Shown here: positions 49,884 to 50,627 of the stretch, piece after piece | Position numbering within the stretch: position 1 is the stretch's first letter | Layout: each line of letters opens with the position of its first letter | Notes under the pieces: generated by a model | What the model saw: only the letters and a program-made list of their open reading frames with translations | Databases searched by the model: none | What the model was told of the DNA's origin: nothing | Origin: Pseudomonas cavernicola | GTDB lineage: Bacteria > Pseudomonadota > Gammaproteobacteria > Pseudomonadales > Pseudomonadaceae | Direction of reading: 5' to 3' | Assembly (NCBI RefSeq): GCF_003596405.1 | Contig: NZ_QYUR01000002.1 | Location: 1,690,501-1,754,500 of the forward strand | Length of the DNA: 64,000 bases | Program-made: the position numbers and the translations under genes

Positions 49884-49945
49884 GCCAACGGTTTTGCGCA
49901 TTGCCTGCACCGTTACGAGAGCGGCATTAGGCACTTAGGCCGAGT

Positions 49946-50460
49946 TTATCCACCGTGCTGTCGCCCCCCACTATAAAGTGCAAAGTTTTCCCCAAAAGCT
50001 GTGGGGCGTTCTGTGGATAACGTGGGTAAAGCTGTCAGGCAGCCATAGCAGCAGCGCTCTTGCGGGCTTTGGTGGTTTTTTGATCATCTGCTTTTTTAGA
50101 GTCAAAACAGCGATTTATCCACTTTATCCACTGTCGTCTGAAGCGCTTTGCAGAGTTGCCCCCAACTACTGTGGGTAGGCTTGTGGGTAAGTGCGGGAGC
50201 AATGTCTTGAGCCCATAGCTGGTAGGGCTTTGCGCCGATTGATCAAGATTTGATCAGGTGCTTCGAATTGCCATCGGCGGCACGTAGGTCCCTCCTGAGT
50301 CAAGGGATAAAGCAGCTTTTTCAAAGGTTTAGCGCATGGTTTTGGTGGCCGTGGAAAAGTTATCCCAGGAGCCTGTGGAGCGAACTGTGGATAAGGTGGG
50401 CAAAGCTTAGCTTGAACCTATCCTGGCGTGGCTTCGGCAAAGTTGTACGTTATTTGATCA
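49946..50460. other. DnaA-box cluster in three degenerate repeats (origin-like or DnaA-titrating locus)
   Basis: No gene is visible between 49884 and 50627. Perfect DnaA boxes (TTATCCACA, minus strand) are at 50012-50020 and 50386-50394. One-mismatch boxes are TTATCCACC at 49946-49954, two abutting TTATCCACT at 50115-50123 and 50124-50132, and TTACCCACA (minus) at 50182-50190. Weaker ones are at 50021-50029, 50170-50178 and 50360-50368. TTTGATCA followed within two bases by TGCT occurs at 50079, 50249 and 50453, marking three modules of about 170-205 bp. T-rich runs adjoin the first TTTGATCA. No dnaA, dnaN, parA or rep gene is nearby, so it is not the main oriC by context. Confidence 0.65.
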
Positions 50461-50627
50461 GGTGCTCGCTGTCGGGTCTGAATCAACTTGTGTGCTGCCG
50501 CGCCAAGCTGAAAACGATGACGTACCCTATGGCTTACTAACTGCGCCGCCAGTGTTGCACGTTACCCAATGGCCTGACTGTATTGATGGTCGTATTTCGC
50601 GGCGAGTAGCTGATCAAGGAGAACACT

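Follow-up and report, generated by a model that had tools for sequence, protein, structure and literature searches.

A tandem array of DnaA-box units downstream of livF in Pseudomonas as a probable DARS-type locus

Results

Gene context and DnaA boxes of the locus

The window analysed here is a 64,000-nt stretch of the Pseudomonas cavernicola genome (G000:C2:1690501-1754500). The segment under study, 49884..50627 (744 bp), lies within the gap between an ABC transporter ATPase gene (48751..49467, + strand, taken from the ORF list), which we presume to be livF, and a short-chain dehydrogenase (SDR) gene (50628..51392, + strand, PF00106). Both neighbours served as synteny anchors. The full livF-SDR gap spans 49468-50627 and is wider than the first-pass annotation had stated. 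A glycerophosphodiester phosphodiesterase (GDPD) gene follows on the other strand (51370..52296, - strand, PF03009), and GDPD also neighbours the array in certain relatives that lack a detected livF match. With a cut-off of 80 aa, the segment is touched by a pair of + strand ORFs (96 and 99 aa) and by a further pair running antisense to the SDR gene; none is a plausible gene, in agreement with the earlier description of the segment as gene-free. At 49746-49886 of the window, a 22-nt inverted repeat (95% complementary) surrounds 97 nt in a MITE-like arrangement; no other copy of its arm occurs within the window. Ahead of it is a fragmentary ORF with its start near 49636, which resembles an ornithine cyclodeaminase N-terminus.

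The box scan recovered the two perfect and four one-mismatch DnaA boxes reported for the segment: the perfect ones at 50012 and 50386, both on the - strand, and the others at 49946, 50115, 50124, and 50182. The segment holds 6 of the 14 boxes with at most one mismatch in the window, and 100 shuffles of the window gave a mean of 5.8 (sd 2.4) with none reaching 14. Genome-wide there are 35 perfect boxes, two of them in the segment, as compared to 14 hits of a reversed control pattern. In two other genomes of the set, perfect boxes numbered 151 vs. 14 for the control (G049) and 140 vs. 23 (G230); at least 33 of the 151 in G049 fall at 208-259 kb, with dnaA at 230 kb, and crowding near dnaA is also seen in G230. 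The sequence TTTGATCA is present at 50079, 50249, and 50453 as had been noted, inside 15-nt repeats spaced 170 and 204 bp apart, and a 52-nt repeat (79% identity) recurs in the segment at a spacing of 374 bp.

Three units of a common plan

Further analysis showed that the boxes are organized in three units. In each, box I (+) is separated by 5 bp from box II (-), which in turn stands 3 bp from box III (-); a spacer of ~50 bp and a 15-bp T-rich site come next. Units were scored with a sequence-only model (R1) of 119 positions that was built from 44 Pseudomonas units. Unit 1 (49986..50085, + strand, 73.0 bits) has box I at 49986-49994 (+, TTTTCCCCA), box II at 50000-50008 (-, TGTGGGGCG), a perfect box III at 50012-50020 (-, TGTGGATAA), a spacer at 50021-50070, and a Fis-like T-rich site at 50071-50085 (GGTGGTTTTTTGATC) with two mismatches to the Fis consensus. 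Unit 2 (50156..50255, + strand, 67.2 bits) is made up of box I (50156-50164, TTGCCCCCA), box II (50170-50178, TGTGGGTAG), box III (50182-50190, TGTGGGTAA), the spacer (50191-50240), and a Fis-consensus site without mismatch (50241-50255, GATCAAGATTTGATC). Unit 3 (50360..50459, + strand, 65.3 bits) carries box I at 50360-50368 (TTATCCCAG), box II at 50374-50382 (TGTGGAGCG), a perfect box III at 50386-50394 (TGTGGATAA), the spacer at 50395-50444, and a Fis-like site at 50445-50459 (GTACGTTATTTGATC, one mismatch). There are extra one-mismatch boxes outside the units: one upstream of unit 1 (49946..49954, +, TTATCCACC) and two abutting boxes between units 1 and 2 (50115..50132, +, TTATCCACT TTATCCACT). 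The abutting pair has no in-register counterpart in the box lists of relatives, as judged by eye. The locus had been described as three decayed direct repeats; there are indeed three repeats, but "decayed" does not apply, since relatives preserve where the boxes lie and how far away the T-rich site is.

The 64-kb window contains exactly three complete I-5-II-3-III cores (starting at 49986, 50156, and 50360), while 60 Markov-shuffled windows gave a mean of 0.017 cores under a lax rule and 0 under a strict rule. The 5/3 spacing yielded 69 cores in a set of 41 livF-SDR gaps (32,910 bp; 40 genomes with one gap each, plus that of the window), and the runner-up of 120 spacings yielded 12. What 137 distinct array units have in common is TT..CC in box I (T96 T99 ... 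C95 C100 percent), the TGTGG half of box II, and a near-consensus box III. Box II in the window units has two to four mismatches and retains the TGTGG half, a reading of the sequence from which affinity cannot be deduced.

The alignment of 44 units is nearly gapless from box III to the T-rich site (in alignment A1 the array unit L048:1272-1367 was entered in shortened form). A dyad in the spacer is 52% paired vs. a median of 25%; since 48% is expected from the column make-up, it represents a conserved symmetric site rather than covariation. A structured RNA was ruled out, because RNAalifold predicted zero pairs on the 44 units and an Rfam search of the locus gave matches solely below the families' gathering scores. 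Inter-unit spacings fall into classes, many of them ~10-11 bp apart (161/172/182/193/204, 287/297, and 365/375). However, the best overall period is 11.45, with R(10.5)=0.25, and helical phasing of the units is no more than suggested.

Fis, IHF, and SeqA

Measured against the Fis consensus GnnYAnnnnnTRnnC (as given in PMC8682772), 41 of 137 array units have a perfect match at +50 from box III, and 120 of 137 match with at most one mismatch; the other offsets carry a mean of 0.09 perfect matches. In the window, one of the three units has the perfect consensus. We also fetched 39 loci from other genera of the order, with some genera represented twice; after L323 was dropped (no core), 30 of 38 showed a perfect Fis consensus at +50 to +52. 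The T-rich tract is part of the R1 model, so loci found with R1 are biased toward the T-rich/Fis site. A Fis homologue was found in 20 of 20 genomes. The fis homologue of P. cavernicola (G000:C2:1759247-1759462) lies ~18 kb from the array, and in G326, G061, G163, and G049 it sits between the two loci of that arm.

The segment contains no perfect IHF consensus and one match with a single mismatch (TAANNNNTTGATW) at 50319. The T-rich site was considered as an IHF site and rejected because of its poor consensus fit. SeqA was found in none of 19 genomes, 13 of them Pseudomonas, while the E. coli control was positive.

Conservation after livF and chromosomal position

The first-pass annotation had proposed that the livF-SDR gap be compared across Pseudomonas. 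BLASTN at the DNA level gave short, weak matches in 20 of 144 genomes including the own genome; the conservation hidden by these weak matches was uncovered by synteny and box scans. At E<=1e-90, livF was matched in 265 of the 298 genomes of the genus. The 62 genomes examined form two sets that overlap by eight: 30 had loci, the own genome among them, and 40 have livF on a chromosome-size contig. The 40 consist of 39 one-contig genomes and G052 (two contigs); among the one-contig genomes outside the 40, G015 belongs to the 30 and G029, G180, and G187 to neither set. R1 units follow livF in all 62 genomes, at least two of them in 61, and one plus a cut-off second in L071. A simpler mismatch scan detected two cores in 38 of the 40. 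In G148, the nearest relative by livF, three units lie between livF and the SDR gene as in the window, and P. protegens FD6 has livF (89%), two cores, and the SDR gene in this order. The units are 3-4 kb away from livF in G340, G212, and G050. The loci L061, L077, and L081 have none within 1.5 kb of livF and two units each at 3-4 kb in longer stretches. Five genomes (G041, G064, G069, G075, and G082) have no livF match at E<=1e-90 and carry related units beside GDPD and/or a LOG-family gene. In G041 (L049) seven tandem units occupy a single gap, spaced alternately ~168 and 193 bp.

In each of the 40 genomes with a chromosome-size contig, the distance between livF and dnaA amounts to 8.4-12.0% of the chromosome, and livF, whichever arm it is on, is oriented in the direction of fork movement. 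The P. cavernicola array is 652 kb from dnaA. In two lineages, G041 and G014, the array is found at 22-24% from dnaA.

Related loci in the genus, the order, and the own genome

R1 matches were found in 20 of 20 Pseudomonas genomes, at 6-18 each and 236 in total. Of the best 150 of the 236 matches, three came from draft G000 and 147, from 19 one-contig genomes, were placed on the map. Among these best matches, 137 of the 147 are no farther than 20% from dnaA in either direction, a range that makes up 40% of the chromosome, and in 12 of the 19 genomes the outer loci on both arms are oriented against the fork and the inner loci with it. Loci of this set are at ~6-15% of the chromosome on both arms. 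In G230 and G231, among the matches listed, just the outer locus of the livF arm is missing, and G245, G020, G064, G041, and G014 deviate from the mirror-like layout. Besides livF-SDR, paralogous units occupy at least four gene contexts: Rieske oxygenase and ETF (four units in several genomes), ACT-domain (gcvR-like) and EamA, histone-deacetylase-like and epimerase, and UPF0029 and ABC transporter (the ABC assignment by eye).

A search of named genomes for the pattern gave at least 120 stretches; among the 80 with a listed title, 78 are from Pseudomonas by that title, and the other two are titled Endozoicomonas and "gamma proteobacterium L18". Beyond the genus, R1 matched 247 of 293 genomes of the order and 104 of 118 sampled genera, and these matches are candidate DARS loci (DnaA-reactivating sequences) as judged from sequence. 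In the phylum, 103 of the 219 genomes drawn had R1 matches; outside the order, many of the matches listed span the core only, and we make no claim of function for them. L333 and L334, from other groups of the phylum, have I-5-II-3-III cores with three perfect DnaA boxes and lack a Fis-consensus match at +50.

The own genome also has five canonical single-core loci (C6:489145, C6:509954, C2:215514, C2:216037, and C2:1468288). They share the 5/3 geometry with the array units but differ in that box II is perfect and box III weak, as in E. coli, and their cores are single or ~520 bp apart. The canonical cores (L263-L267; L265-L267 are at C2:215.5 and 216.0 kb and C6:489 kb) are found beside lonB-like/UPF0114, FKBP/DUF1232, epimerase/methyltransferase, and RmuC/RES genes. 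Scored with the Pseudomonas spacer profile, four of the five are at or below 0.8% and L266 is at 11%. Two of the five have a perfect Fis consensus at +50 (C2:215514 and C2:216037, both without T-tract), and one more has it at +51.

The oriC region of the own genome (L006) gave a partial R1 match of 15.7 bits (model positions 34-108). In the same search the E. coli DARS1 scored 18.3 and the DARS2 core 14.7 bits; since the own oriC outscores the DARS2 core, weak R1 scores alone cannot tell DARS from origin DNA. A second oriC-like AT-rich DnaA-box region of recognisably similar sequence (L009, G000:C2:1092568-1095576) is located near the rpmH-dnaA origin L006, with flanking genes that by eye resemble mnmE and mnmG; both oriC-like regions look unlike the segment. 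Elsewhere (L012), a head-to-head pair of perfect DnaA boxes (C2:1123211 and 1123234, 23 bp apart) lies between divergent ORFs.

R1 and geometry scans of E. coli MG1655

The DARS1 core of MG1655 reads TTATCCACT-5-TGTGGATAA-3-TGTGTATTA and the DARS2 core TTATTCACC-5-TGTGGATAG-3-TGTGAAGAA, the latter located at L127:4136 by means of the deletion primers given in PMC4585315. A search with R1 through 250 kb of MG1655, oriC and datA among them, returned four matches at E<=10, none of which fell outside the DARS1 and DARS2 gaps. The DARS1 core ranked first (3e-4), followed by the DARS2 core (0.004), another site in the DARS2 gap (0.08), and a fragment within that gap (4.5). There were zero matches at this threshold in the oriC and datA regions. 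A plain 5/3 scan of the same 250 kb gave three matches, again all within the DARS1 and DARS2 gaps; the datA region lacks a 5/3 core in the geometry scan. With the boxes excluded, the 50 nt after the DARS1 boxes fit the Pseudomonas spacer profile so well that, of 99,980 positions scored in E. coli, they belong to the top 0.04%. The DARS2 spacer does not fit this profile (fraction 0.07).

Discussion

DARS elements are defined by three DnaA boxes, with box I oriented opposite to II and III (PMC5742627). All three window units have this arrangement and the spacing common to DARS1 and DARS2; they are non-coding and away from oriC, and they are related to DARS beyond the single boxes by R1 and by the DARS1 spacer, though the DARS2 spacer misfits and the own oriC reaches 15.7 bits. 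We consider it probable, from sequence and by analogy with E. coli, that the segment is a tandem, multi-core DARS-type locus that would reactivate DnaA and is probably modulated by Fis. The first-pass annotation had offered a DnaA-binding regulatory locus or an origin relic; the first part finds support, narrowed to DARS by the geometry, R1, and the DARS1 spacer, and the relic part does not. Each unit may bind DnaA head-to-head on boxes I and II, with box III, oriented as II, serving as an anchor. As at the DARS of E. coli, ADP-DnaA gathered on a unit would lose ADP and leave as apo-DnaA, which could then rebind ATP and become able to initiate at oriC. Fis at the T-rich site ~50 bp past box III, one per unit, would probably modulate the assembly or shape the complex. 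Several observations count against a DARS: the weak box II with a strong III is the reverse of DARS1, the partial R1 match of the own oriC ranks above the DARS2 core, the DARS2 and L266 spacers misfit, there is no convincing IHF site, the Fis consensus is perfect in one of the three window units and, at +50, in two of the five own canonical units, and the arrays of G041 and G014 are at 22-24%.

The strong box III at 3 bp from box II also invites a datA-like interpretation, by which this box and its same-orientation neighbours would gather ATP-DnaA head-to-tail and stimulate ATP hydrolysis, so that the locus inactivates DnaA; the distance of ~10% from dnaA is near that of E. coli datA (about 10%). 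We regard this as improbable, since the datA region has neither an R1 match nor a 5/3 core, a clear IHF site, which datA has together with its boxes 2, 3, and 7, was not found in the array, and box I facing II is retained although head-to-tail assembly does not need it. Passive titration, in which the boxes merely soak up DnaA, has been proposed for E. coli origin-proximal boxes, whose density and titration are reported in PMC12371093, and it draws on the enrichment of perfect boxes near dnaA in G049 and G230. Titration, however, would require neither the 5/3 geometry, nor a nearly indel-free spacer, nor a Fis-consensus site at a fixed offset, and it seems an unlikely account of the array.

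The SDR start is 168 bp downstream of the unit 3 end, as might be expected if DnaA controlled the SDR (or livF) gene from its promoter region; this is very unlikely, given units beside GDPD and/or a LOG-family gene in the five genomes without detected livF, the kilobases between livF and the units in G340, G212, and G050, and the paralogous units in at least four other contexts. A relic of an integrated replicon's origin, or a second chromosomal origin, is scarcely credible: box density, T-rich patches, and the partial R1 match of the own oriC speak for it, but the GC content is 44-58% (100-bp windows) without a pronounced AT-rich stretch, no AT-rich unwinding element by the boxes and adjoining dnaA or gidA was found, inspection of the ORFs at 44-57 kb by eye revealed no rep or par gene, units follow livF in 62 of 62 genomes, and the own oriC matches R1 in part only.

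If the array is a DARS-type locus, its copy number would double early in each replication round, as loci of the set are at ~6-15% of the chromosome on both arms. With more doubt than conviction, we extend this to a wider scheme: many Pseudomonas chromosomes might time initiation by mirror-like, Fis-gated, multi-core DARS arrays ~6-15% from oriC, the inner with the fork and the outer against it. Forks would double the arrays early and in a defined order and thus create a dosage-based reactivation timer in a genus without detected SeqA (13 genomes searched). Array units, with boxes I and II weak and box III strong, would then make up a functional class of their own, distinct from the canonical single-core DARS of the same genome. 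If the DARS reading is right, it would provide deletable sites in a genus that serves biotechnology and medicine and a way to test whether tandem iteration, orientation, and oriC distance set initiation timing. The little-understood 50-bp DARS1 flank may be an old conserved module. To our knowledge, replication control is poorly mapped beyond a few model bacteria. Our literature search found no paper on DARS loci in Pseudomonas, and a mention in Fujimitsu 2009 or in the 2019 NAR DnaA-DnaA paper is possible.

Comparison with known systems

DARS1 (bioD-uvrB gap) is the rank-1 R1 match and resembles the array in its I-5-II-3-III boxes and in a similar 50-bp downstream region with a GCAAGC..GGCTTGC dyad. 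According to PMC5742627, this ~50-bp flank boosts ADP release in vitro and DARS1 needs no extra factors. DARS1 differs from the array in having a single core with box II strong and III weak (III is strong in the array) and no Fis consensus at +50. DARS2 (rppH-mutH gap), the rank-2 match, has the same core geometry but further boxes and a dissimilar spacer; IHF-consensus sites with one mismatch, between the core and a Fis-consensus match ~110 bp past box III, are its own. Assignment of the array to a DARS2 subtype was rejected, as the IHF sites (IBS1-2) were not found. PMC4245941 states that DARS2 activity in E. coli requires Fis and that the DARS2 core is conserved among E. coli-related gamma-proteobacteria, and DARS-like sequences have been reported in Vibrio cholerae (PMC6090056). 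Turning to datA, this locus resembles the array as an intergenic DnaA-box cluster at a comparable distance from the origin (~10%), and is unlike it in having no I-5-II-3-III core and no R1 match. DnaA-box clusters off oriC that regulate initiation are also present in Bacillus and Streptomyces.
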